Part shown: piece by piece, positions 13,734 to 63,068 of the stretch
Layout of the letters: each line of letters begins with the position of its first letter
Numbering within the stretch: the stretch's first letter is position 1
Virus record (IMG/VR): IMGVR_UViG_3300033049_000066
Coordinates: 1-64,000 of that record
Reading direction: 5' to 3' (one strand)
DNA length: 64,000 nucleotides
Origin: a virus
Program-made: the position numbers and the translations under genes
Notes under the pieces: model-generated
What the model saw: only the letters and a program-made list of their open reading frames with translations
Told to the model about the DNA's origin: nothing
Database searches by the model: none

Positions 13734-15113
13734 ATGACAAATTACACAATTGAGGTCCAGCGCCTCTTCTTAGAAATGATGATAGCAGATGCGTCCACAT
13801 TTATTCGCGTACAGAATATTTTCAACGTTGAAAATTTTCACCCGGACCTCATGCCCGCTGCTGCCTTCTTAGAAAAACACTCCGACAAACACGGCACATT
13901 GCCTGAGCTATCACAACTGAAGGCCATGACGAATATTACACTGAACCCACTATCAGACGTAATAAACGAAGGCCACTACGATTGGTTTTTTGAAGAGTTT
14001 GAGGGATTTACACGACGCCAGGAACTTGAGAGGGCAGTGTTACAATCTGCAGACTTACTTGAAGCCGGCGACTTCGAACCAGTGCTACCATTAATAAAAG
14101 CAGCAGTTGAAATCAGCCTGTTAAAAGACATGGGCATCAATTACTTCGAAGACCCCAAGGCACGACTAAAAGCAATCAAAGATAACAACGGACAAATGTC
14201 AACAGGTTGGGCGTCAATGGATCACAAGCTCTACGGGGGATTCAACCGCGGTGAGCTACAGATATTCGCTGGCGGTTCGGGCTCAGGTAAATCATTGTTC
14301 ATGCAAAACCTAGCAGTGAATTGGGTGGAAGCAAATATGAATGGAATATTTGTCACGCTTGAGCTTAGTGAAGATTTGTGCGCAATGCGAATAGATAGTA
14401 TGCTAACCGGCACACCATCCAAGGCGATATTTAAGAACCTTGATGATGTTGAGATGAAAGTTAAAATGAAAGCCAAATCCTCCGGTAATTTGCAGATTAA
14501 ATACTTTCCAGCACAAAGCACTATCAACGACATCCGCGCCTTTGTTAAAGAATTACAAGTTAAAACATCAAACCGCATTGACTTTATGTGTATTGATTAC
14601 TTGGATTTGCTAATGCCAGTTACTGCGAAGGTTAGCCCAAACGATTTATTTGTCAAGGATAAGTACGTGTCGGAAGAAATACGTAATTTAGCTAAGGAAC
14701 TTGACATTGTTATGGTCACAGCATCGCAGCTAAATCGCTCAGCAGTAGAAGAAGTGGAGTTCGACCACAGCATGATCTCCGGCGGAATCTCGAAGATAAA
14801 TACCGCGGACAACGTGTTTGGTATTTTCACATCCAGGGCAATGCGCGAACGCGGCAAGTACCAGTTACAGCTTATGAAGACACGTAGCTCAGCAGGCGTA
14901 GGACAGAAGATCGATTTAGACTTCGACGTAGATACACTGCGGATCGTAGATAATGGGCAGCCGGGCTTCGGTGGTCACAGTCAATCACCGAGCAATATAT
15001 TAAATAATATCAAAGCGAAGTCTACACAGTCCTACCAACCAGCCGGGAAAGTGCAAGGCACAGTGGATTCCGCGAAGCTAAAATCATTACTTAATAAAGT
15101 TAAGAAAGAATAG
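13734..15113 (+). CDS. Replicative DNA helicase, gp41/DnaB-like
   Basis: Hexameric 5'-3' helicase at the fork. 459 aa (T4 gp41: 475). N-terminal DnaB-like helical domain to ~130, RecA-like core with Walker A GGSGSGKS (180-187), Walker B MCIDYLDLL near 284-292, and a C-terminal low-complexity tail where gp41 proteins bind partners. Inteins are known in gp41 genes of this phage group; this copy has none. Confidence 0.93.
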   Translation: MTNYTIEVQRLFLEMMIADASTFIRVQNIFNVENFHPDLMPAAAFLEKHSDKHGTLPELSQLKAMTNITLNPLSDVINEGHYDWFFEEFEGFTRRQELERAVLQSADLLEAGDFEPVLPLIKAAVEISLLKDMGINYFEDPKARLKAIKDNNGQMSTGWASMDHKLYGGFNRGELQIFAGGSGSGKSLFMQNLAVNWVEANMNGIFVTLELSEDLCAMRIDSMLTGTPSKAIFKNLDDVEMKVKMKAKSSGNLQIKYFPAQSTINDIRAFVKELQVKTSNRIDFMCIDYLDLLMPVTAKVSPNDLFVKDKYVSEEIRNLAKELDIVMVTASQLNRSAVEEVEFDHSMISGGISKINTADNVFGIFTSRAMRERGKYQLQLMKTRSSAGVGQKIDLDFDVDTLRIVDNGQPGFGGHSQSPSNILNNIKAKSTQSYQPAGKVQGTVDSAKLKSLLNKVKKE

Positions 15114-15122
15114 CGCATAGTA

Positions 15123-15130
15123 GATAAATA
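15123..15130 (+). promoter_or_regulatory. Late-promoter box
   Basis: GATAAATA, 25 nt before the 15155 gene, heading the 15-19 kb virion cluster. Confidence 0.55.
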
Positions 15131-15154
15131 TACAGATAACGAGAGTCTAACATA

Positions 15155-15403
15155 ATGAAGAAAAAGACACGGAGTATCCTTGAAGAACTTGAATCCATGC
15201 ATCACGCACGAGATTCAAGGTACGTCATTGAATCCCGCGCAGAAAACATAATCGCTAGTGCTATTAATTTAATAGATTTAATTGAAGAAACTTATACAAC
15301 GGAAGAGGCGGTTGATCTCACTCGTAAATTACTTAATTCAATTAAGCAAAAAGACTCGCTAAAGTTTAAACGTTCGATGGGAAGAATAAATGAGAGCAAA
15401 TGA
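15155..15403 (+). CDS. Conserved small hypothetical protein
   Basis: 82 aa, helical and charged (KKKTRSILEELE ... RRINESK-type end). A homologous short protein with RSILEEL, DSR and ESRAENII segments is common in T4-like aquatic phages next to virion genes. Overlaps the next gene by 14 nt. Function unknown. Confidence 0.7.
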   Translation: MKKKTRSILEELESMHHARDSRYVIESRAENIIASAINLIDLIEETYTTEEAVDLTRKLLNSIKQKDSLKFKRSMGRINESK

Positions 15404-16259
15404 GTTCATAATGGAAGGTCCGCTGGACAAACTAGACAATGCGATGCAAGGGCAGATTATCGGTCGACAACAGAAAAATCGAGCAAATGTTAAAAAGCGG
15501 AATCTGCCTGAAATCACGAAGGCAATTCACGAAGTCCTCGCCGCAAAAGTGAAGACATTGGTTGACACCGGCAACGCTGATGGCGCAATCGTACAGCAAC
15601 TAGTGACAAAAGTGTTAAATAAAATGCTAAAGATAGACGTTCAGTCAGCCGGTACATACCGCAGAGACTTATCGGCCCTAGTAGGTGCGGTATTAGAATC
15701 CCCACAGACCATCATTGATAATCCTGCTATATCAAAAATTATCAATACAATTGCAGACAAAGCAATTAGCACCCACGATCCAGAATATAAACTAATTGAT
15801 CCCGCATTGCGGAAAAAACTTGATGTCCTAACTAAGAATGAACAAAACAAAAAGAAACAATATAAGATTGTAATAACGCATTTAACTAAAAAAGAAAACA
15901 TGCAGGAAAAGCTTGCTCGTGACGCTGCTGAAGAATATTTTCAAGATGAAGTACACTACGATCCTAGTGATGATACCGAATCCGATGCAGACACTAATCT
16001 AACGCAATTTGTTGCAGATGTATTTTTCATTGAAGGCACGTACAATACAAAGAAAGAAGGTAAGCAAAAGGTTTATGTGAACCGGAAAGGAAAGTGGAGT
16101 CTATGGCGAATGGCTAAAAAGAATTTGTGGGAGTTTACGACTAGTGTCGCTGATGACACTGAGGATCAAGCAATAGAGACTTTAATACGACAATCAGAAT
16201 TAGCGCCAATTCCGATGACATTTACACGTAAAGACGACAATTACTACCAGGTAGACTAA
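15390..16259 (+). CDS. Putative packaged internal protein with capsid-targeting leader
   Basis: 289 aa. The N-terminus MRANEFIME|G resembles the leader of T4 internal proteins (MKTYQEFIAE|A), with an IxE|G site for the prohead protease gp21 at residues 7-10. Such leaders direct proteins into the prohead and are removed during maturation. The body is helical and rich in Lys and Asp, with no recognised enzyme motif. It overlaps the next gene by 1 nt (TAATG). Confidence 0.65.
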   Translation: MRANEFIMEGPLDKLDNAMQGQIIGRQQKNRANVKKRNLPEITKAIHEVLAAKVKTLVDTGNADGAIVQQLVTKVLNKMLKIDVQSAGTYRRDLSALVGAVLESPQTIIDNPAISKIINTIADKAISTHDPEYKLIDPALRKKLDVLTKNEQNKKKQYKIVITHLTKKENMQEKLARDAAEEYFQDEVHYDPSDDTESDADTNLTQFVADVFFIEGTYNTKKEGKQKVYVNRKGKWSLWRMAKKNLWEFTTSVADDTEDQAIETLIRQSELAPIPMTFTRKDDNYYQVD

Positions 16260-17578
16260 TGAAATTATTAAAAACGTATTACAGATTAATGGAAGGTGGC
16301 AACGTATTTAAAGATGCTGAGAAACAACCAGTCACCTCACGTATTAACAAGGAACATATAGCACCATCACTTGCGTTTGTTGAAAAAATACTTGGCATGA
16401 AACTTGACGGTTACCTCGGCACAACTGGCAAGAAAACAAGTTCCGGTGATATGGACATATCCGTGGACAGCAGCAAGTACAACAAAAAGACCGTAGCGAA
16501 CACGCTGAAGGCGTGGGCGAAGGGGCAAGGCTTAGTGCCAGGTGAGTGGGTGAAACTTAGCGGAGACAACGTACATTTTAAAACTCCCATCCGTGACGCC
16601 AGCGGTAAAGAAATCGGCGGTTATGCGCAGTTAGATTTGATGTTTGGTAACCCCCAATTTCAAGTATGGTCAATGCGCGGAGAGCCCGGCAACGAATTCA
16701 AGGGAATGTATCGTCACATCATCATGGCAAGTATAGCAGCAGCGAACGGCATGAAGTGGTCTTATAAAAATGGACTCGTGGACCGCAACACAAATAAAAT
16801 TATATCTCAAGATCCAAAAACAATTATTAGAAAACTGTTACCAGGTTACAGCGGCGATCCAATGTCCTTGTCGGTGAAAAGCATATTAGAATATGTTTAC
16901 AGCAAGTACAAAAACCAACCTAAAAAGATCGAAGCTTTAATTGGGCAAGCAGTGAGTACATTAGCCGAGCACTACGGTGTTCAACTACCGATGCCAGACC
17001 AAGAAACTGTTCATGAATCTAACGATCCAGACGAATATTTTCTTGCCAAGCTGCGGAATCGTATTGTTGATTTAGACATGGAGCCACTAATTGAAAAACG
17101 CGACCCATTCTATAAAGAATACGTAACAGAGGGCAAATTGAGAGATATGAATCATTTGGAAGATTTGATCTTAGATGAAGGACCATCCGGGCTATTTAAG
17201 GCCATTGGAATCCTACGTTCATTTGCGGAAGGATCAGCCCAAGAAAAAACTACAATAAAATGGGATGGGTGTATCGCTGGCGATTCAACATTAATAACCA
17301 GCAAAGGTGAACGTACAATAGCTGATATAATAAGCAATTGGCAAAAGGAAGAAATAAAAGTACTAGCCCACAATTTCGAAACTGGCCGAGACGAGTTTGT
17401 AGCTATAAACATGGCCGGGAAACAAATTGGTAAAAAAGATTGGGTTGAGGTCACTCTCGATAACGGCACGGTAATTAAAATGACTGAAGACCACGAAGTG
17501 TACACTACAAACCGCGGATGGGTAACCGCTGGCGAGCTAACCAAAAACGACGATATAAAAGAATCCACTATAAAATAA
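16259..17578 (+). CDS. N-terminal half of a split-intein virion protein (nucleotidyltransferase-like) plus N-intein
   Basis: 439 aa. Leader MKLLKTYYRLME|GG (LxE|G) suggests packaging in the capsid. Residues ~50-130 resemble a pol-beta-type nucleotidyltransferase: GTTGKKTSSGDMDISVD (Asp64, Asp66) and QLDLMF (Asp126). Residues 1-337 end in TTIKWDG, like motif I (KxDG) of ligases and capping enzymes. The next residue starts an N-intein (Cys338 to the stop), so the reading frame stops before the protein is complete; the rest is encoded at 18353. The two halves should be joined by trans-splicing to give a 653-aa protein. Host function is inferred only from motifs. Confidence 0.8.
   Translation: MKLLKTYYRLMEGGNVFKDAEKQPVTSRINKEHIAPSLAFVEKILGMKLDGYLGTTGKKTSSGDMDISVDSSKYNKKTVANTLKAWAKGQGLVPGEWVKLSGDNVHFKTPIRDASGKEIGGYAQLDLMFGNPQFQVWSMRGEPGNEFKGMYRHIIMASIAAANGMKWSYKNGLVDRNTNKIISQDPKTIIRKLLPGYSGDPMSLSVKSILEYVYSKYKNQPKKIEALIGQAVSTLAEHYGVQLPMPDQETVHESNDPDEYFLAKLRNRIVDLDMEPLIEKRDPFYKEYVTEGKLRDMNHLEDLILDEGPSGLFKAIGILRSFAEGSAQEKTTIKWDGCIAGDSTLITSKGERTIADIISNWQKEEIKVLAHNFETGRDEFVAINMAGKQIGKKDWVEVTLDNGTVIKMTEDHEVYTTNRGWVTAGELTKNDDIKESTIK
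17270..17575 (+). other. N-terminal half of a split intein (102 aa)
   Basis: Block A starts with Cys (CIAGDSTLITSKGERTIADI). Block B has the TxxH motif (MTEDHEVYTT) and ends with GWVTAGELTKND, the normal end of the first Hint half. The stop follows immediately where an endonuclease domain or the second half would be in a contiguous intein. Length matches known N-split inteins (88-125 aa). Confidence 0.88.
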
Positions 17579-17601
17579 GATGGTTACTGTCTCACTTCTT
17601 T

Positions 17602-17609
17602 GATAAATA
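17602..17609 (+). promoter_or_regulatory. Late-promoter box inside the split gene
   Basis: GATAAATA, 17 nt before the endonuclease start, followed by AAAGGAGAG as ribosome site. The inserted endonuclease thus has its own late promoter. Confidence 0.55.
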
Positions 17610-17625
17610 AAACAAAGGAGAGTAT

Positions 17626-18399
17626 ATGATATCATGTAGATGTGGAGTCGCGACTCCACCGGGCAAGTTTGGAGCACATGCAAAGGGTTGTCAGTCCTAT
17701 AAAGACGAAAGACAAAAACTAGAAAATATAGATAACGAATACATCGTTGGCTTATATAAGAGTACGTACTCAGTGTCTGAATGTTGTAATATCTTGCAGG
17801 ATAAGTTCCTATTAGGCCATGCTGTGATTCGAAAAATAGTAACTGCAATTCTTAAAGAGCGTAATGTGTTTGAAGGAATTACTGGCGAACACATGCAATC
17901 GGCTAAGCAAGCAAAAATGAAAAAAACAATGCTATTTCGGTATGGTGTTATCAATGCCGGTCAGATGGACGGGAACGGGTTTAAGCAGCAAAATAAAATA
18001 CCATACACTAGTCCGGTATTTTTTGAAAAATACAATAAGTTTAGAAAATTGGTTGATTATCAAACTAGGAAGACAGTATCGAAGTTAGCTAAGCCAGTGT
18101 ACTGCGAATATACCGGAGTAATGTTTGCAGATAACCAGCAACTGGACGTTAATCCAAACGACCCATGTAAGCGCACAGTAGATCATATTCAGTCAGTGTA
18201 CGAATGTTTCTTCAAAGGATGGACGGTAGAACAAACGTCAGGAATTGACAATTTAATATTCTGTTTACGACTGTGCAATACAATTAAGGGCAATAATGAA
18301 GTTAACCATTTCAGACTAAATATTGCTAATAACATCAGAGAAGGATTTATCAATGAAGGTTACAAGTATAAAGAAGATTTCAAAATTAGAACAACATGA
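17626..18399 (+). CDS. HNH homing endonuclease between the split-intein halves
   Basis: 257 aa. N-terminal Cys/His pair (CRCG ... HAKGC) suggests a small zinc module, then a helical region with a possible DNA-binding helix (EHMQSAKQAKMKKTMLFRYG). The C-terminal HNH domain has a Cys (CEYTGVMF), the catalytic DH (VDHIQSVYECFFKGW) and NLIFCLRLCNTIKGN. Encoded separately between the intein halves, it would make the split-intein locus mobile. Its last 47 nt overlap the second half of the gene. Confidence 0.85.
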   Translation: MISCRCGVATPPGKFGAHAKGCQSYKDERQKLENIDNEYIVGLYKSTYSVSECCNILQDKFLLGHAVIRKIVTAILKERNVFEGITGEHMQSAKQAKMKKTMLFRYGVINAGQMDGNGFKQQNKIPYTSPVFFEKYNKFRKLVDYQTRKTVSKLAKPVYCEYTGVMFADNQQLDVNPNDPCKRTVDHIQSVYECFFKGWTVEQTSGIDNLIFCLRLCNTIKGNNEVNHFRLNIANNIREGFINEGYKYKEDFKIRTT

Positions 18400-18463
18400 C
18401 ATTTCAACACCAACTGAAAATTTCTATGTTAAAACCGGTGAGGCAAACTGCTTAATTCACAAC
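18353..18463 (+). other. C-terminal half of the split intein (37 aa)
   Basis: MKVTSIKKISKLEQHDI... begins at its own start codon, contains the HDISTPTENFYV block F pattern and ends LIHN, with His-Asn followed by Ser as first extein residue. Length equals that of known fast C-split inteins (about 37-40 aa). Confidence 0.9.
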
Positions 18464-19414
18464 AGTCCCGCTATCGTTTTTGGTCGAGATGCCAACGGCG
18501 CGTTCGTACTTACTGATAAGTCCGGATTCGCAGCGAAAGGATATGACGGCAAGGCAACATCATCCAAGGACTTACAGAAAATGCTAGCAGGAAGAAACCC
18601 AGCAATGGACCAGTCCAGGCAGCAGTTTGTAACTAATATGGGCGATATATTTGACGAGTACCAGAAAGCTACGCCCAAGGACTTCAGGGGATTTTTAAGT
18701 GGTGACTTAATGTATTTTAACACGCCAGGACTAGAAGATCATACAGGATATGTATTCCAGCCGAACGTAGTACGATACGAAGTACACAAAGATTCTAAGC
18801 TAGGTAAACAAATAGGAAAAAGTAAAACAGGGATTACAATTCACAAGTACATTGGTGATCAGTTCAACACCACAGAGGAGGCAATTCGCCAACTTCGTGG
18901 CACGGATGTACTTGCTATATCGCCAGTCTACGTAACACAGGCATCAAAAATTAACACAAAGCCCATTGAGAAACTAGAGGCATTTGCTAAGGCGCATGCC
19001 GCAGAAATTAAGGAATTATTTAATCCAGCAGGTCTCAAAGGTATCGCAAACATACATCAACTGTTTTATAAGTACATAAACAACAGCGTTAAGATATCCG
19101 GCGGACTTGAGAACTTAGGCAAGGACTTCCCACAGTGGCTGAACTCAGAAAAATTAACTGATAACAAACGTGCGAACATAGCTGCGTACCTTACAGCTAA
19201 CAAGAAGGGCGTGAATGCGTTATGGACGTTGATTCGGGGCATAATGAAGATTAAAGACTGGCTAATTACAGAACTTGATTCTCACCCAGCAGATGTACAG
19301 CAGAGCATCGGTGGACAAAAAGGTGGAGAAGGATACGTTATTACCCATCCCGATGGACCTGTAAAATTGGTGCCACGGGGTAAATTTTCAGCAGCTAATT
19401 TTGCGGCACATTAA
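18353..19414 (+). CDS. C-intein plus C-terminal half of the split virion protein
   Basis: 353 aa from the ATG at 18353, chosen because GAAGG lies ~8 nt upstream and because the product then begins exactly at a normal C-intein. Residues 1-37 are the C-intein; from Ser38 the sequence is the rest of the host protein (SPAIVFGRDANGAFVLTDKSGF), which continues KWDG into the KWDGSPA pattern typical of KxDG nucleotidyltransferase domains. The remainder is helical with HQLFYKYINN and no recognised motif. Overlaps the endonuclease gene. Confidence 0.85.
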   Translation: MKVTSIKKISKLEQHDISTPTENFYVKTGEANCLIHNSPAIVFGRDANGAFVLTDKSGFAAKGYDGKATSSKDLQKMLAGRNPAMDQSRQQFVTNMGDIFDEYQKATPKDFRGFLSGDLMYFNTPGLEDHTGYVFQPNVVRYEVHKDSKLGKQIGKSKTGITIHKYIGDQFNTTEEAIRQLRGTDVLAISPVYVTQASKINTKPIEKLEAFAKAHAAEIKELFNPAGLKGIANIHQLFYKYINNSVKISGGLENLGKDFPQWLNSEKLTDNKRANIAAYLTANKKGVNALWTLIRGIMKIKDWLITELDSHPADVQQSIGGQKGGEGYVITHPDGPVKLVPRGKFSAANFAAH

Positions 19415-19469
19415 TCTTATTAAATCTATCCTCGAAACCGGGCTTTGCATCGTTAAAACGTGAAAGAAA

Positions 19470-19477
19470 GATAAATA
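19470..19477 (+). promoter_or_regulatory. Late-promoter box
   Basis: GATAAATA, 58 nt before the 19535 gene. The 19415-19534 gap otherwise holds nothing visible. Confidence 0.5.
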
Positions 19478-19534
19478 ACTACAATAGTTAGACAACGTAA
19501 GGTTGATTTAACAAAATAAATTAGGAGAATTAAA

Positions 19535-19879
19535 ATGGCCGGAGTAGCACGAGTAAACGGTTTTACACAGAGTGATCAGTTTTTTGGTCGTACAATTGCA
19601 GGTATTACAGTATCTACATTAACAGCAGCACCAGCAGATGTTGATGGTGAGCATGTTAAATGGCCTGAACTTGACGCAGCAGTTCAAGCAATTCAAACAA
19701 TTTCTACAGTTTCTGTAGTCGGCGCGTATGCAGCAGGCGACACAGCAATCAACTTAATCGTTGAAGGCGTTGACGCAGTTGGTAGCCCGTACTTACTAGC
19801 AGACGGTACAACAGCAGCAACACTTTTTGCAAAGTTAGCTGAACTTACTGGTGAAACAGTAGTTGTATTTGTAATCTAA
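19535..19879 (+). CDS. Small probable virion protein, highly translated
   Basis: 114 aa, small-residue-rich, of low charge, with repeating beta-like segments (TIAGITVSTLTAAPADVDGEHVKWPELDAAV). It has a strong ribosome site (TTAGGAGAATTAAA), a late box and its own strong terminator, the arrangement of an abundant structural or capsid-decoration protein. No family recognised. Confidence 0.7.
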   Translation: MAGVARVNGFTQSDQFFGRTIAGITVSTLTAAPADVDGEHVKWPELDAAVQAIQTISTVSVVGAYAAGDTAINLIVEGVDAVGSPYLLADGTTAATLFAKLAELTGETVVVFVI

Positions 19880-19902
19880 TTATTACTTAACCGTAGTAAA
19901 TT

Positions 19903-19929
19903 AAAAAGCACTCTCCGGAGTGCTTTTTT
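19903..19929 (+). terminator. Intrinsic terminator
   Basis: AAAAAGCACTC-TCCG-GAGTGCTTTTTT: 11-bp stem with a T-run. Confidence 0.92.
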
Positions 19930-19949
19930 ATGGCCGGACTTTCTGTATT

Positions 19950-19958
19950 GTTAAATAC
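19950..19958 (+). promoter_or_regulatory. Weak late-promoter box
   Basis: GTTAAATAC, 4 nt before the ATG at 19962, directly after the terminator. Confidence 0.35.
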
Positions 19959-19961
19959 AGT

Positions 19962-20366
19962 ATGCCACAACACATTAAAATACATACTGACTTTGATATT
20001 ACAAATACCGGAGTAGTACGTAATTACAAAGAAGGATTACTACCAAGAAAAGTTAACGGTAACTTAATAACTTCAGCGGAAGAGTGGACTAAGCTAAGAC
20101 AACAGCAGGCGAACTGGGAGACACTAATACAGATTATTTCGTTACGGGCCCAGCCACTAGACATACACACCACCGTAAATGCCAAAGACTGGACCCTTGA
20201 ATTTAATGTTGATCACGTCGGTGTATTTTTAAAAGACGGTGACCTGCTTGGCCGACTTAAAGAAGATATTACAAATGTACCGCTACTAACAGATCTCGAC
20301 GAGCACAAAGATTTAGAAGGGATTAGTCCATTACCAAACATAAGATTTGAGACTTATGAATTATAA
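19962..20366 (+). CDS. Conserved hypothetical protein
   Basis: 134 aa from ATG at 19962 (earlier starts fall in the terminator). Not recognised; contains HIKIHTDFDITNTGVVRNYK and a C-terminal LRFETYEL-like end. Overlaps the next gene by 11 nt. Probably virion-related from its place in the cluster. Confidence 0.7.
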   Translation: MPQHIKIHTDFDITNTGVVRNYKEGLLPRKVNGNLITSAEEWTKLRQQQANWETLIQIISLRAQPLDIHTTVNAKDWTLEFNVDHVGVFLKDGDLLGRLKEDITNVPLLTDLDEHKDLEGISPLPNIRFETYEL

Positions 20367-20868
20367 TAAGATTCGTACATCAGTTCGTAAACTTGCCCGG
20401 GCCGCGTTAACTCAGGACGACTTAGCCCAACGGATAATTATCCAACGAGGTAATAAGTACACCGTGTACCGAGATTATAAATTAGAAGAAATAGCAGCTG
20501 GATGGAAAGTATCTTCACACAAGTTTAGTGAGACGCTATTGTTTACCACATCGAAAGTGGCCTTGGCGTGGTGTATACTAACCACCGTCCGGAGATATGC
20601 TGCCGCAGCTCATATGCTACATCTTGACAATCTAGTCTCAGCAAAGCAAGGAAATATTGATATATTAATGAATGCGTTAGAAAAACCAGATGGTGTGCCC
20701 AATCGCGCCATATTATTAGCGAGATTAACCGAGGATATTAATTCTCGGCAGAAGTACAAGAAACAAATACACTTCTGCGTCGAATCTGCTAAATACATAA
20801 AACTTATAGGAACTAATGATGAATTTATCCGAGCTAACAAAGCCAGTAGACGCAAGCGCAGTCGCTGA
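20356..20868 (+). CDS. Hypothetical protein
   Basis: 170 aa from ATG at 20356, overlapping the previous gene. Basic C-terminus (ASRRKRSR). Middle region is helical with a hydrophobic stretch (TSKVALAWCILTTVRRYAAAAH) that is not a clear membrane span. Its end overlaps the next start by 53 nt. Function unknown. Confidence 0.7.
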   Translation: MNYNKIRTSVRKLARAALTQDDLAQRIIIQRGNKYTVYRDYKLEEIAAGWKVSSHKFSETLLFTTSKVALAWCILTTVRRYAAAAHMLHLDNLVSAKQGNIDILMNALEKPDGVPNRAILLARLTEDINSRQKYKKQIHFCVESAKYIKLIGTNDEFIRANKASRRKRSR

Positions 20869-21721
20869 TTTAATTAAAATCCAATTTGGTGCAGATTACA
20901 AAATAGGTAATTTGAAATTAAAAGAATCGATTAACCTTCTAAACAAAACTACTGGCATGATTGCTGAGTTTAAACAAAAGGAAAACCTTCACTCGAGCGA
21001 AAATAACGCCTCGTACATGAAATTAATTATGGTAAATGAAGCCGCTACAAAACGGGTAAGTGAACTAACTGCAAACATACAAATACAGGAATCAGAAATG
21101 AAGAATAAATTATTAACTAAGGCACTGAAGATTGCTGCACACGGTGGCACTTTATCTGAAGAACAGCTAACAGCACTGCGGATTACAGAATCTATGAAAG
21201 CAGTTCTGCAAAACAAAAACACTGCACGAACTTTTATGCGTAAGATGATTGAAGCTAAAAAGAATCAAAACACCGCAATAATGGAAAGCGAGATTGCTAC
21301 AGCACAGACTACAATCGCAGCACAAGACATAGCAGACCAAATCCAGACAATGATCGAAAAGTTCGCAGACATCAAGTACAAAGAACTGCCAGCACTTAAT
21401 GACAGCATTCGTAACGCACAAGGCGTCCAAGCTTCAGAAGCGTTCAACTCACAACTAACATCATCACTAGACGAACTAACAACATCACTTGAGACAGCAA
21501 AAGGCGAAGTTAACAATGCCGTAGCAGCACTAACTGGTGAAGAAGTAGCAGCACCAGGTGATTTAGACCTAGACGGTTTAGACGGCGGTGACGAAGAAAT
21601 TGATGTTGATTTAGATTTAGATGCAGAACTTAACTTTGACGAACCAAGTGACGAAGGCGACTTTGATCTTGATCTTGAAGCAGATGACGACGAAATAGAC
21701 TTAGGAAGAAAGAGAAGATAA
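20816..21721 (+). CDS. Coiled-coil protein with a long acidic tail, probable virion or scaffold protein
   Basis: 301 aa. Residues ~10-225 are helical with heptad-like spacing; residues ~240-295 are almost all Asp/Glu/Leu/Gly (DLDLDGLDGGDEEIDVDLDLD), ending in RKRR. Such layouts occur in prohead core or scaffold proteins. The start is the first of two ATGs and is not certain. Overlaps the next gene (TAATG). Confidence 0.7.
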   Translation: MMNLSELTKPVDASAVADLIKIQFGADYKIGNLKLKESINLLNKTTGMIAEFKQKENLHSSENNASYMKLIMVNEAATKRVSELTANIQIQESEMKNKLLTKALKIAAHGGTLSEEQLTALRITESMKAVLQNKNTARTFMRKMIEAKKNQNTAIMESEIATAQTTIAAQDIADQIQTMIEKFADIKYKELPALNDSIRNAQGVQASEAFNSQLTSSLDELTTSLETAKGEVNNAVAALTGEEVAAPGDLDLDGLDGGDEEIDVDLDLDAELNFDEPSDEGDFDLDLEADDDEIDLGRKRR

Positions 21722-22182
21722 TGAGTGATAAAATATTAGTTGAGGCTTATAGCAAACTTAAAGCCATTGAAGAAGCTGAAGACCCATTCTGCATTGGTGC
21801 AAAAACCGAGCCTCGCTTTGGTGACGGATATAAAAAAGTTGAAGAAGTACTAGACGTAGCAAACTCAGAAATGGAAATCGATGCAGACGAGCTAGATTTA
21901 GACGATAAACCAAACCTTGAAGAAGATGCTGATCGTGATGATCTTGTTGACGGCATTGAAGAACTAACAGAAATTCGAGACGAATTATTTGACATAACCG
22001 AACGCCTAACAGATGCGATTCGCGCGTATGCGCCAGACGAACTTAGATATTGGTCTTCATACGGATTGGCTCAGTTAAAGCTGTTATCCGGCTCAGATGA
22101 ATTTATGTCATCTGATGAAAATCTTACTACATTAATTAAGAAGTTGCAAGAGAAATTAGGTACCCAGTACGAGTACGAGTAA
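21721..22182 (+). CDS. Acidic hypothetical protein, possible leader
   Basis: 153 aa. ILVE|A (residues 5-9) and IEE|A (16-19) both fit the prohead-protease pattern, so it may be a packaged protein, but this evidence is weak. The body is acidic and helical (DELDLDDKPNLEEDADRDD). Unknown function. Confidence 0.65.
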   Translation: MSDKILVEAYSKLKAIEEAEDPFCIGAKTEPRFGDGYKKVEEVLDVANSEMEIDADELDLDDKPNLEEDADRDDLVDGIEELTEIRDELFDITERLTDAIRAYAPDELRYWSSYGLAQLKLLSGSDEFMSSDENLTTLIKKLQEKLGTQYEYE

Positions 22183-22184
22183 AT

Positions 22185-22265
22185 ATGGAATATACAGACA
22201 TGCGCCAGTTACTTAACGCATTAACTTCATTGTTAACGCAATCAGGAGAAAGAGGGAATTTTTAA
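22185..22265 (+). CDS. Possible 26-aa peptide
   Basis: MEYTDMRQLLNALTSLLTQ..., 2 nt after the previous stop. Upstream ribosome site is weak. The MRQLLNAL segment loosely resembles the INQLKKLME leaders nearby; it could be an eroded leader of that family or a chance frame. Confidence 0.3.
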   Translation: MEYTDMRQLLNALTSLLTQSGERGNF

Positions 22266-22284
22266 TTACTTCGTTAAGACAAAA

Positions 22285-22295
22285 ATAAATAAATA
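22285..22295 (+). promoter_or_regulatory. Late-promoter box
   Basis: AATAAATAAATAG, just 4 nt before the 22299 ATG and heading the run of leader-bearing genes. Confidence 0.5.
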
Positions 22296-22298
22296 GTT

Positions 22299-22673
22299 AT
22301 GAATATAAAAGATATTACACGAACTTTGGCAATTATTAACGAAGCTGATGATCAATTAGCTCAAGAACAGCAGATAGCAGCGATATCCCAATTAATAGCA
22401 GATCGTACAGAAGATGAAAATTCTCCTTCTAAGCTAAGTACGCCTGCTTTTATTTCGATTGTTAACAAGCTTGGCATTCCATTAACAAAAGATACACTAA
22501 TGGACCTTATACAAAAAGGACATCTTCAGTCTGTAATTAAAGATGTAAATATGGACGAGGTACAGTTCAAAGGTCAGCAAGATATTCCAGACGCAGACAT
22601 GAACGTTGACAAAGCGAAGGATATAGTTGCTGATATGGCAAAACGTGCTGCAAAGAAAGGAATACACAAATGA
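22299..22673 (+). CDS. Putative packaged protein with capsid-targeting leader
   Basis: 124 aa. N-terminus MNIKDITRTLAIINE|A carries an INE|A cleavage-type site at residues 13-16. The remainder is helical and has no recognised domain. It overlaps the next gene by 4 nt (ATGA). Confidence 0.65.
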   Translation: MNIKDITRTLAIINEADDQLAQEQQIAAISQLIADRTEDENSPSKLSTPAFISIVNKLGIPLTKDTLMDLIQKGHLQSVIKDVNMDEVQFKGQQDIPDADMNVDKAKDIVADMAKRAAKKGIHK

Positions 22674-23011
22674 ACGAAATAAACCAACTTAAAAAGTTAA
22701 TGGAAGCAGTTAGCGAAGTGAATGAAGAAACAACATTTTATACTAAACATCGCAAGTTAGCTGAGTTATTAAGTAAAATCGCTGAAAAGATAGACAAATC
22801 CACATACGATGCACCATCCAGTGGCCAAGAAGCATTAGATACCTTTTTTGCGAATCTTGATAATTTTCTTAATAGCTTAGATACCGAAGTAGCATCTTTA
22901 ATGAAAAAATACGACCAGTATGTTGACAAACAAGCGCAAGACGGCGGGTACGCAGATGATGTTAACCCGTCGGCATACTTCATGTCACCATCTAAACGGA
23001 CAGAAGACTAA
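22670..23011 (+). CDS. Putative packaged protein with MNEINQLKKLME|A leader
   Basis: 113 aa. The first 14 residues (MNEINQLKKLMEAV) are nearly identical to those of the next two genes, ending in LME|A; everything after is unrelated to them. The body is helical (KIAEKIDKSTY ... LMKKYDQYVDKQ). Function unknown. Confidence 0.7.
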   Translation: MNEINQLKKLMEAVSEVNEETTFYTKHRKLAELLSKIAEKIDKSTYDAPSSGQEALDTFFANLDNFLNSLDTEVASLMKKYDQYVDKQAQDGGYADDVNPSAYFMSPSKRTED

Positions 23012-23031
23012 AAATGAACAGAGGAATAAAA

Positions 23032-23616
23032 ATGAACGAAATAACCCAACTTAAAAAGTTAATGGAAGCGGTTCAGCTTAACGAATACATTGTACAAAAC
23101 GGCGACTCGGTTAATGGACTATTAGCATTAAATATTTTTACAGACGCAGAAAGTAGACCATCGGAATTTGAAGAAGAATTCAGAAACAGTCCAGAATGGA
23201 TGAATGTTGAAATTAAATTTTACCAGATAGCAGCCAATCTTGAAAATGCAATACGCAAGTCTAGTGCTAAATTAGACGACATTGATGTAGATGAAGTACA
23301 TCGCGTTTGGTATGACGGAAGTGATGCTTACAGTGATGTCGAGACTGCAATTGTAGAGTTACCTAAAATATATGTTGAACAACTTAGTGTAATTAGAGAA
23401 ATTCTAATGGGTCAGGATCAAAGTATAGAAAACGGCACGTTAGAAGGCAAGACAGTAACAGAAGATCAAAGCCAATACGATATGGAATTTGATGACGACG
23501 AGATTATTATATATACCTACGGTGGCGAACCAGTTCTTACTATGTCAATGGAATCCTGGGAACGTTTGATGCGTGTATACAATAACTACAATAGAGATCA
23601 ACAAGGTCCAGAATAA
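23032..23616 (+). CDS. Putative packaged protein with MNEITQLKKLME|A leader
   Basis: 194 aa from ATG at 23032, chosen over the ATG at 23014 because AGAGGA sits between them as a ribosome site and because the product then begins with the shared leader. The body is acidic (DDDEIIIYTYGG) and unrelated to the flanking leader proteins. Stop overlaps the next start (TAATG). Confidence 0.7.
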   Translation: MNEITQLKKLMEAVQLNEYIVQNGDSVNGLLALNIFTDAESRPSEFEEEFRNSPEWMNVEIKFYQIAANLENAIRKSSAKLDDIDVDEVHRVWYDGSDAYSDVETAIVELPKIYVEQLSVIREILMGQDQSIENGTLEGKTVTEDQSQYDMEFDDDEIIIYTYGGEPVLTMSMESWERLMRVYNNYNRDQQGPE

Positions 23617-24170
23617 TGAACGAAATAAACCAACTTAAAAAGTTAATGGAAGCGGTGGACGACGGTGCAGCCCGTACTGAGCCATGGGAATATAACGTTG
23701 AGGAATTTATGAGTGAACTAAGAGCATTTGCTAATTTGCTTCCAGACTCTCATCACCGTGATCAGCTACTTCGGATAATTAGCGAAGGGAGTATTGGGTT
23801 AATGGATAGAGTCAAGGCATTCGCAGCTGAACTATCAGATCCATATTATGGTGATTGGCTTGAACTTATCATGTATGAGTATAATAAGCCAGTAACTGAA
23901 GAAGCAAACGATACTTACGATCAAAAAACAGGTGAGTGGAGCCGAAGCGGACGTTACGACGACGTAGAAGATGATTCTATGAATCATAATGACGTTGTTA
24001 AAGAAGACAGCACTGATACCAATATGCAGGAACTGTCAGCTATGTCAGTCAAGTATGATTTTGAGGTTACTGAATATTACGCTCTAGTAGTTTACGCAAA
24101 AGGAACGGATGACGTAGTCGGCTCTTTTGATGATTTTGATGATATGATTAGTAGTGCCCTTAACAATTAA
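23616..24170 (+). CDS. Putative packaged protein with MNEINQLKKLME|A leader
   Basis: 184 aa. Same leader, third tandem copy. The body is acidic (VEDDSMNHNDVV) and unrelated to the other two. Function unknown. Confidence 0.7.
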   Translation: MNEINQLKKLMEAVDDGAARTEPWEYNVEEFMSELRAFANLLPDSHHRDQLLRIISEGSIGLMDRVKAFAAELSDPYYGDWLELIMYEYNKPVTEEANDTYDQKTGEWSRSGRYDDVEDDSMNHNDVVKEDSTDTNMQELSAMSVKYDFEVTEYYALVVYAKGTDDVVGSFDDFDDMISSALNN

Positions 24171-24186
24171 AATTTTATCATAACAC

Positions 24187-24215
24187 TTGACATACAGTAT
24201 CGCATCTGCTATACT
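24187..24215 (+). promoter_or_regulatory. Sigma70-type promoter, likely leaderless mRNA
   Basis: TTGACA (24187-24192), 17 nt, TATACT (24210-24215). The gene's ATG at 24222 is 6 nt after the -10, i.e. at about the expected transcription start. Confidence 0.8.
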
Positions 24216-24221
24216 TGTTGA

Positions 24222-24908
24222 ATGCTAATTCAAAAATACGATTACAAAAAACTAAAACGCAAAAATATCAATGGCAAGCGCCATTACCTAATGGCAGATT
24301 CGGACGCCTACAGTCCAATGGCGTCAGTAACGACCGTCCTCGACATAACAAAGCCCGCGGCAGATCGCGAAGCTCTCGCACAATGGCGGAAAAATGTAGG
24401 AACGAAGAGAGCGCAGGAAATCTCATCAGAGGCTGCTGGACGCGGTACGCGAATGCACAAATACTTGGAGCAATTCTGTATTACAGATGAACTCCCAGTC
24501 CCAGGAAGCAATCCGTACGCAAGGCAAGCTAACAAAATGGCAGGAATAGTAGTCGACCAAGGCTTGGTGAACGTAGATGAAATATGGGGAGTTGAAGTTC
24601 CGGTCTGTCACCCGAATATTTACGCAGGCACCACTGATTGCGCAGGTGTACACAAAGGTGACGAGTCGATTATTGACTTCAAGCAGTCCAACAAGCCCAA
24701 GACATTAGAGAGAGTGCAGGACTACTTTTTACAGACAGTTGCGTACGGCGAAGCTCATAACGAGTTGTACGGAACGAACATCCGCAAGGGTGTTATAATG
24801 ATCTGTACAGCAGACTTCCAGTACCAAGAATTCGTTATCGAACGCGAAGAATATGATGCACACCGTCGAAGATGGTGGCATAGGGTTGAAGAATACTTTG
24901 AGAAGTGA
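24222..24908 (+). CDS. PD-(D/E)XK (RecB/Cas4-like) exonuclease
   Basis: 228 aa. The nuclease core has GRGTRMHKYLEQF (catalytic His region), EVPVCHPNIYAGTTDCAGV (conserved Asp), SIIDFKQSNKP (D-x-K) and VQDYFLQTVAYGEA (QxxxY). This set marks the RecB-like/Cas4-like exonuclease family. In T4-like phages such proteins probably serve DNA end processing or host-DNA degradation. No ribosome site because the ATG lies at the expected +1. Confidence 0.85.
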   Translation: MLIQKYDYKKLKRKNINGKRHYLMADSDAYSPMASVTTVLDITKPAADREALAQWRKNVGTKRAQEISSEAAGRGTRMHKYLEQFCITDELPVPGSNPYARQANKMAGIVVDQGLVNVDEIWGVEVPVCHPNIYAGTTDCAGVHKGDESIIDFKQSNKPKTLERVQDYFLQTVAYGEAHNELYGTNIRKGVIMICTADFQYQEFVIEREEYDAHRRRWWHRVEEYFEK

Positions 24909-58580: not shown

Positions 58581-59714
58581 ATGAGATTATATGAGTTCGC
58601 AACAGACCTAATTGAAGGTGGCGCATCGGGTGGCGCAAGGTATAACACTGAAGTTGGCACGTTGTTAGCACTTGCTGGCAATAATAATGCACATAAGTTT
58701 GACCCAAATACCCCAGAGCAATACTTTAATAAGAAGAAGCTAAGCAACCCAACTAAAGTATTCCGGGAGATTAAGGAATTTTTAGTTCCAAATTGGGACG
58801 AGAAAAAGTTTTGGGGATTTTACGAACGCACTGTTAATTCCTATCCCAAAATGCTAGCAAACATGAAAGAACATAAAGTTTCACCCCCGACGGTATTTGG
58901 ATGGGCAGGTGGTTCTAATCAGTCTGATGACGGACCATCTGACGTTGAATTTGTTAATCACGAGTACTCAGGTATTTCAATTAAAGACACTGGAGGTATT
59001 ACATTAGCTAACTTAACTCCTAAAAGTTTAGGATTGAAACCAATCAAGGGCGAAGATATTTTTAACACTTACGCCAAGAAAGAATTTACTGCTTGGAAAA
59101 AAGCCGCCATCACCGGAACTATAGCAGAAGCAATGCGCATACCCGACCAGTGGTATTATCCGATTAAAGAAAAGTACGGCATTAAATATTCAACAGAAGA
59201 TAAACAGTTTCATTTGTCAAATGATACTACGATAAAGACCTATTCAAAAGCTGAGTTAATGAGCCCGGCTATGATGAAGAATGATAAATCGCATAGGGTA
59301 TTCGGAGATCACTTACAGGAAAATAAATCACAATACGCAAAATTAACAAAAGCATTAGGTTTAAAGATTTCTGTATTATTTGAAGAGATAATGGAAGATT
59401 ACTTAGGTAAGGAAAACCGAATCACTGCTATTCTACAATTTACAAACAAACCATACTTTTACTTAACACCAAAGTCGCTATATAATATTCCAAAATTTGA
59501 TGACTTAGATGAACTTAAAATTAAAGGAATTAAATTAGCTGTATCAGACGGTACATCGATGCGATTCCTTACCCGAATCGGCCATCCGGATAGTAGCGAC
59601 AATGCTGTACTTGATATCTATGTTAGATATGCTAATGGACTGTTCGCGGCAAACCCAACGGTTCGTGTCCAGAGTATTAAAAATCCCGAATATATCTATT
59701 GGGAAAAATTATAA
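58581..59714 (+). CDS. Putative packaged protein with capsid-targeting leader, possible nuclease fold
   Basis: 377 aa. Leader MRLYEFATDLIE|GG resembles T4 internal-protein leaders and carries an LIE|G site at 10-13. The body has DDGPSDVEFVNHEYSGISIK (Asp121, Glu123, Lys135), which loosely recalls the D-x(n)-x-x-K core of PD-(D/E)XK nucleases, and FLTRIGHPDSSDNAVLDIYV near the end. It is late and lies far from the 15-24 kb cluster. An injected nuclease or inhibitor is a reasonable guess only. Confidence 0.65.
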   Translation: MRLYEFATDLIEGGASGGARYNTEVGTLLALAGNNNAHKFDPNTPEQYFNKKKLSNPTKVFREIKEFLVPNWDEKKFWGFYERTVNSYPKMLANMKEHKVSPPTVFGWAGGSNQSDDGPSDVEFVNHEYSGISIKDTGGITLANLTPKSLGLKPIKGEDIFNTYAKKEFTAWKKAAITGTIAEAMRIPDQWYYPIKEKYGIKYSTEDKQFHLSNDTTIKTYSKAELMSPAMMKNDKSHRVFGDHLQENKSQYAKLTKALGLKISVLFEEIMEDYLGKENRITAILQFTNKPYFYLTPKSLYNIPKFDDLDELKIKGIKLAVSDGTSMRFLTRIGHPDSSDNAVLDIYVRYANGLFAANPTVRVQSIKNPEYIYWEKL

Positions 59715-62774: not shown

Positions 62775-63068
62775 ATGACCACAATCTACCCATTACACGA
62801 TAACGTTATCGTTCGTCGTGCCGAAGAACAAACTGAAACAGCTGGCGGTATCATTTTGCCAGGTGACACTACTGAAGAAAAACCGGCCGAGGGCAAGGTA
62901 ATCGCAGTAGGCAAAGGCAAAACATTATCTAACGGCGAAGTTGACGCACTTGACGTGAAAGTTGGCGACCGGATAATTTTTGGTCAAAAAGCTGGAGAAG
63001 ACATTACCATCAACAGTGAAGAATTCCTTGTAATTATTGAAGATGAGATCATTGCTATTCTTAGATAA
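62775..63068 (+). CDS. groES: GroES co-chaperonin
   Basis: 97 aa (E. coli: 97). PLHDNVIVRRAEEQTETAGGIILPGDTTEEKPAEGKVIAV matches GroES with its mobile loop (residues ~16-32). The VGDRIIFG and EEFLVIIEDEIIAIL strands close the fold. Like T4 gp31 it likely caps host GroEL to fold phage proteins. Confidence 0.94.
   Translation: MTTIYPLHDNVIVRRAEEQTETAGGIILPGDTTEEKPAEGKVIAVGKGKTLSNGEVDALDVKVGDRIIFGQKAGEDITINSEEFLVIIEDEIIAILR

Follow-up and report, generated by a model that had tools for sequence, protein, structure and literature searches.

The internal proteins of phage T4 are described as having a capsid-targeting sequence as their sole common part, and injected IPI* as blocking a restriction enzyme (PMC3012670). 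T4 Alt, with a leader of 6 residues, is reported to be cut after ITE at residue 6 and also at LTE at residue 619, and gp53 and gp54 of phage SPN3US to carry an identical N-terminus on diverged bodies (PMC5694885). In the account given in PMC9503650, head-packaged enzymes were earlier inferred from fusions to MuF or portal proteins and from gene context (Iyer, Aravind and co-workers). Here we describe positions 15155-24170 of a 64,000-base stretch of viral DNA (the window; bases 1-64000 of the 293,278-base IMG/VR record IMGVR_UViG_3300033049_000066, a T4-like virus), which we interpret as a late locus for virion proteins in a jumbo phage of the T4 type. Its leader-bearing proteins are probably targeted to the capsid and released by a protease, and one of them appears to join two enzymes.

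Like T4 IPI-III and Alt, the locus combines short N-terminal leaders ending in a glutamate site, a common leader on unrelated bodies and a gp21-type protease; unlike them, at least one cargo is predicted to be a two-enzyme fusion with a second, internal site, and the system is known from sequence alone. The body families of IPI, IPII, IPIII and Alt are not among the Pfam or PHROGs matches, a result that leaves room for weak matches. With SPN3US and phiKZ, as the published account describes them, the locus would share the freeing of ejected proteins by a prohead protease and diverged proteins that keep an identical leader, whereas their sites read AXE or SXE and their propeptides mostly exceed 100 residues, against leaders of 8-15 residues and (L/I)xE here. 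Polyvalent proteins and head-packaged ADP-ribosyltransferases, in the accounts drawn on here, likewise place several enzyme domains in one predicted head-packaged protein; in contrast to those cases, the basis for predicting packaging here is the leaders and the internal protease sites, and cutting at the latter would separate the domains. The leader mechanism is already known. A two-enzyme cargo with an internal site, here broken by a split intein, looks new, and literature searches for DUF6267, for capsid-targeting leaders in jumbo or marine phages, and for family X polymerases with phage ligases returned no title describing such a cargo.

Leaders and the prohead protease

T4-type leaders end in (L/I)xE before A, G or S. 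The original prediction was that seven proteins of the window begin with such leaders, and all seven N-termini are present as claimed: 15390 (MRANEFIME, then G), 16259 (MKLLKTYYRLME, then G), 22299 (MNIKDITRTLAIINE, then A), 22670 and 23616 (both MNEINQLKKLME, then A), 23032 (MNEITQLKKLME, then A) and the outlying 58581 (MRLYEFATDLIE, then G). An eighth leader, at 21721 (MSDKILVE, then A), had been overlooked. The bodies are unrelated to one another, as had also been proposed; comparison of the eight window proteins gave no pair below E 0.5. A further claim, that the genes follow late boxes, stands in part: ATAAATA occurs no more than 80 nucleotides upstream of 22299, 58581 and 15155, and the other genes have no box of their own. 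With its box (GATAAATA, 31 nucleotides upstream), 15155 heads the run 15155-15390-16259.

We defined a strict motif as (L/I)xE(A/G/S) with E at residues 5-20, for which the background is 35 of 773 body stretches. It occurs in 14 of the 80 window genes against 3.6 expected (p 1.4e-5). Within 15155-24170, an interval picked post hoc, 7 of 14 genes have it (p 1e-6), or 5 of 12 when the three near-identical leaders are counted once (p 1e-4); the rest of the window, 58581 included, has 7 of 66 (p 0.03). Thus, the enrichment lies mainly in the cluster, and 58581 is inseparable from background by the motif alone. The motif was found in 26 of 240 genes of seven sampled genome stretches (8.7 expected) and in 94 of 848 other open reading frames around relatives (29.8 expected). 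In the neighbourhoods of relatives L007 and L008, the strict motif alone gives 2/28 and 3/27, which is not significant because leaders there often have V at P3 or another residue at P1' (the residue after the cut).

The leader shared by three of these proteins is a separable DNA module carried on different bodies. The genome has five copies of the pattern MNEI(N/T)QLK (at 22670, 23032, 23616, 286747 and 287231), and these are 74-95% identical over 42 nucleotides. Identity in their flanks (30 nucleotides upstream and 33 downstream) is 12-40%, with one upstream pair at 70%. Near versions, MKETxQLxxLME then A or S, are found in relatives L006, L007 and L113, and the L006 and L007 bodies with such a leader have a small C-terminal piece in common with 23032. 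The two copies at 286747 and 287231 lie in genome stretch 283434-287632, where neighbouring proteins start MRDTKLYKILE then N and MRVKQFMKTLNE then Y, beside a gene that by eye resembles the large terminase. Elsewhere (genome 127837-128628), a 263-residue protein has the T4-like leader MRSTEFINE then G; a Pfam search with it gave no significant match.

The original prediction had named a search for gp21 elsewhere in the genome as a check, and a gp21-type prohead protease is encoded at genome 247032-247664 (Peptidase_S77 E 4.2e-24, above the family cut-off). The major capsid protein (397 residues) has strict sites at 19 and 42 only, and the scaffold-like protein adjoining the protease gene has 7; both genes were named by position and by eye. 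Sites so placed are what one expects of a protease that trims the capsid protein near residue 42 and degrades the scaffold. By eye, open reading frames resembling homing endonucleases (genome 247664-248260 and 250827-251318) lie beside the protease and capsid genes.

A candidate polymerase-ligase cargo

The reading frame at 16259, taken in the original prediction as a leader protein in its own right, has its leader and is only the first half of a broken gene. The second half is 18323, and the break is made by a split intein at KWDG (all features given here are on the + strand). The leader MKLLKTYYRLME (16259..16294), with a predicted cut before GGNVFKD, precedes a family-X-polymerase-like nucleotidyltransferase domain and linker (16295..17131). 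At 17120..17134 is a predicted internal prohead-protease site, YVTE then G (E291, G292; E at 17129-17131), at the start of DUF6267. Because it has V at P3, this site is counted as broad, defined as (LIVMAF)xE then (AGS), and not as strict. The N-terminal part of the ligase-like DUF6267 domain (17132..17269; PF19782 E 3.3e-4) ends in KWDG and is followed by the split-intein N part, 102 residues starting CIAGDSTLIT (17270..17575; PF14890 E 9e-7, below the curated cut-off). A free-standing HNH-type endonuclease reading frame lies between the halves (17626..18399; weak PHROG HNH endonuclease match, E 1.1e-3). The split-intein C part, recognised from its sequence, has 37 residues and ends HN before S (18353..18463), and the C-terminal part of DUF6267 follows as the extein SPAIVFGRD... 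(18464..19414; PF19782 E 9.5e-26).

The features of a split intein are found together here: an N part, a C part ending HN before S, separate reading frames, and an empty site in relatives, since L005, L007 and L008 have the same protein uninterrupted, with KWDG-SPA and no intein. The two halves would be trans-spliced into one protein. Dassa and co-workers reportedly described, in 2009, fractured genes that combine split inteins with a separate endonuclease. As in those, two halves carry the intein N and C parts with an endonuclease frame between them; unlike those, the host gene here is a polymerase-ligase fusion cut at KWDG and the endonuclease looks HNH-like.

The original prediction had also proposed a leader-motif scan in related genomes, and the site is kept in 41 of 43 distinct polymerase-like and 56 of 66 distinct DUF6267 relatives. 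The former counts come from 79 of the best 80 of 401 stretches and the latter from 79 of the best 80 of at least 586, with a row equal to L006 or L005 omitted, so that they describe the nearest relatives. In the 41 polymerase-like relatives, (L/I)xE then GG stands at the start and P2 varies; of the two exceptions, L111 is without its N-terminus and L168 has RLINE then GG inside a longer protein. This protein has 758 residues, with an extra piece of ~160 residues before RLINE then GGNVFKD, and may be a three-part cargo chain. Phages Atu_ph07 and Phosso have leaderless homologues that begin with M-GG precisely where the cut is predicted; in Phosso there is no in-frame start between the preceding stop and that Met, and in Atu_ph07 an upstream TTG start is possible.

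For DUF6267, the 56 proteins have the broad site and 50 of the 66 the strict one, 5-10 residues before the first conserved motif; at random body positions the count is 85/3300. The leaders are 9 to 97 residues long in the cases listed, with a constant end, and 42 of 51 distinct ones open with M(R/K)x1-3(E/D)(F/I/L/V). In fused polymerase-like and DUF6267 proteins, an internal site is present in 26 of 26 distinct sequences (strict in 21). In separate domains the site closes a leader, and in fused ones it lies within the chain as a link, as release of each domain by a protease predicts.

The polymerase-like domain was modelled on relative L007 from 31 sequences (mean predicted local distance difference test, pLDDT, 83.3). 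Foldseek matched the model to DNA polymerases lambda, beta and mu (E 4.9e-6, probability 1.00), with 216 matches at E 0.001 or below, and structural alignment gave Z 10.1 and a root-mean-square deviation of 3.9 over 184 aligned residues. Family X is marked by GS/GT...GDxD and a third catalytic Asp; G53, G62, D63, D65 and D125 (GDxD and the third Asp) are invariant in the 31 aligned sequences. Curated profiles gave DNA_pol_B_thumb in 1 of 31 members at E 0.097 and no polymerase X family in the others, and sequence profiles of this domain and of DUF6267 found only chance-level matches among solved structures. The first domain is family-X-polymerase-like in its modelled fold and motifs, and may act as a polymerase.

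The DUF6267 (PF19782) model, built on L006 from 51 sequences, has a mean pLDDT of 91.8. ATP-dependent ligases have motifs I (KxDG), IV (EG) and V (a lysine). In the 51 sequences K43, D45, G46, E333, G334 and K345 are invariant, within KWDG, EG and K-x-V-x-R, which we take to be these three motifs. The top Foldseek matches are ligases, at weak scores (best E 0.045), and the best structural matches by Z are RNA ligases. DUF6267 is ligase-like by its motifs and this weak fold match, and could have ligase activity. A search for the name DUF6267 in the literature collection used found no paper. In cyanophages L011, L191, L193 and L194, the gene that immediately follows the leaderless DUF6267 gene is either annotated as a cytidylyltransferase or looks like one, so that the domain may pair with another protein in these phages.

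Other genes of the locus and the virion link

Three proteins of the locus match PHROG families annotated 'virion structural protein'. The first, at the head of the run (15155..15403; phrog_11854, E 5.4e-18), is small and without a canonical leader; the second (20816..21721; phrog_14154, E 1.5e-15) is leaderless with an acidic tail; and the third (22299..22673; phrog_15050, E 3e-4) has its leader at 22299-22343. The protein at 15390..16259 (leader 15390-15416) has a body without functional assignment. In relatives, genes in its place have varied bodies and T4-like leaders: MKANEFIVE then A, MRASEIIVE then A, MKINEIIQE then G, MKASEFVNE then G, and others. Of the 27 distinct genes that immediately precede the polymerase-like gene in relatives, 8 only have a strict site; nine resemble the leaderless 15155-type gene and several have T4-like leaders with a non-canonical P1' or spacing.

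The leader-bearing protein at 21721..22182 (leader 21721-21744) has two sites close together. Its relatives in L006, L007 and L008 keep MxDKIL(T/K/N)E then A, or near variants, and L006 and L008 have the gene two or three times. The proteins with the common leader are at 22670..23011 (leader 22670-22705), 23032..23616 (leader 23032-23067), in which the C-terminal piece is related to the L006 and L007 proteins, and 23616..24170 (leader 23616-23651). The protein at 58581..59714, with a TATAAATA box 28 nucleotides upstream, possibly has a leader and is a weak case. Phage records gave no match, either in Megablast with 15000-24500 or in tblastn with 15390 and 58581, and an NCBIfam search gave no useful match. 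Window 62775-63068 resembles, by eye, a GroES-type co-chaperonin.

In Agrobacterium phage Atu_ph07, a helicase gene, a 15155-like gene (identified by eye) and the polymerase-like gene have the same order as here. By our count, the polymerase-like gene is coding sequence (CDS) 65 and the helicase CDS 70, in agreement with the published account, which names the helicase-primase gp70 (PMC6102473). The same account describes 131 virion proteins identified by mass spectrometry, with 29 among the 46 CDS of the cluster 31-76, an interval total (PMC6102473). The matching locus falls within this cluster. We found the strict motif in 11 of its 46 CDS, compared with 2 of the other 149 in the part sampled, the first 162 kb (one cut CDS omitted). 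An unbroken row of eleven genes, CDS 53-63, has leaders such as MRWEQLTE, in all of which LxE ends at residue 8; nine that were aligned are 17-38% identical to the first, with M1, Q5, L6 and E8 invariant. These genes were considered as Alt-like ADP-ribosyltransferases (from a YRG...S...E pattern), which Pfam and PDB profile searches of 9 of the 11 did not confirm.

Alternatives and biological meaning

The explanation by T4-type capsid-targeting leaders cut by a gp21-like protease is well supported by sequence (the protease gene, the leader module and the conserved sites). We propose that seven genes encode leader proteins (15390, 16259+18323, 21721, 22299, 22670, 23032 and 23616). Each leader would take its protein into the prohead core, where the gp21-type protease would cut after (L/I)xE and free the mature protein; DNA would be packaged around it, and it would exit with the DNA into the next cell. 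Delivery into the host is probable. The original prediction spoke of injected effectors of unknown function, which is too strong as to injection and too cautious as to one cargo, assigned here as a family-X-polymerase-like domain joined to ligase-like DUF6267. The trans-spliced product of 16259+18323 would consist of leader, polymerase-like domain, protease site and DUF6267, and the protease would split it into two enzymes. Acting ahead of phage gene expression, the pair could fill gaps and join broken ends in the incoming DNA, or mend cleaved tRNA. It is plausible that such a pair repairs DNA or RNA; of its two halves, the polymerase has the better support. The complete scenario, in which a gap-filling polymerase and a new type of ligase (DUF6267) form a cargo polyprotein that is loaded by its leader, cut apart in the head at the domain borders and delivered as a repair kit before phage expression, is put forward tentatively and is somewhat more likely wrong than right.

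Several observations weigh against this explanation. The relatives are not independent of one another, many polymerase-like leaders have 5 residues, which is short for a targeting signal, and residues other than A, G or S (N, E, K and T among them) are frequent at P1'. The broad site is absent in 10 of the 66 DUF6267 proteins. In the four sequences of the 22299 family E15 is invariant, and the residue after it is E in the other three. For 58581, the collections searched contain one 100%-identical contig and no other relative. Cyanophage DUF6267 is leaderless in 7 of 7 records examined (of 58 found), and the domain therefore also works without a leader. With the DUF6267 model, Foldseek gave no match at E 0.001 or below, and the best structural alignment has Z 7.2 (the tool's mark being 8), with a root-mean-square deviation of 4.5 over 176 aligned residues.

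Two alternatives survive best, each to about the same degree. The leader proteins could belong to the prohead core or scaffold and be expelled after being cut to pieces, with nothing delivered. T4 gp22, gp67 and gp68 are described as cut by gp21, with fragments that leave the head (PMC5694885), several cluster proteins are small and acidic, and 21721 has its paired sites; however, the bodies of polymerase and ligase type are folded domains that conserve their catalytic residues, and the conserved sites lie at domain borders, an argument that does not extend to the small proteins of 22670-24170. We regard this reading as unlikely. Just as unlikely is that the DUF6267 pair carries out RNA (tRNA) repair in the infected cell where it is made, in the manner of RlaP and RNA ligase, with packaging incidental or absent. 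RlaP nucleotidyltransferases of the Pol-beta type are described as accompanying RNA ligases in jumbo phages (PMC7824862). The present pair resembles them, to the extent of that description, in pairing a nucleotidyltransferase of this type with a putative ATP-dependent ligase, and differs in having ligase-like DUF6267 as the partner, predicted virion delivery and no RlaP profile match (0 of 31 members matched a Pfam model named RlaP at E up to 1). The leaderless nucleotidyltransferase of Atu_ph07 and Phosso adjoins a gene with a weak RNA_ligase match, which fits RNA repair, as do the RNA ligases among the structural matches of DUF6267; on the other side are the sites that most relatives keep where each of the two domains begins, and a fold closest to polymerases lambda, beta and mu.

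It is more doubtful still that the (L/I)xE then (A/G) stretches, instead of being protease sites, are ordinary helices at the N-terminus that serve folding or the binding of a partner. E-GG is invariant in 31 of 31 aligned polymerase-like sequences, as a constraint of the fold would give, but conservation is limited to P3 and P1, with P2 free to vary, the L007 model has a disordered leader (pLDDT <50 for residues 1-12), DUF6267 leaders differ in length with a constant end, and one leader occurs on different bodies. Chance plus one recent leader triplication, for which a background of about 1 gene in 22, counts barely above it outside the cluster and the common leader of 22670, 23032 and 23616 could speak, is already disfavoured and very improbable, since the motif excess persists with the triplet counted once and orthologues of 15390, 16259 and 21721 keep the motif or a near form.

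Most head proteins of jumbo phages have no known role. If the explanation by capsid-targeting leaders is correct, the leader rule would list probable injected proteins from the genome sequence, backed here by conservation of the sites at domain borders, and DUF6267 gains a functional proposal. We predict that many T4-like phages, here mostly metagenomic, enter the cell with a repair polymerase and ligase of their own. This prediction offers a direct way to test if phages, on entry, pre-empt host DNA or tRNA damage.

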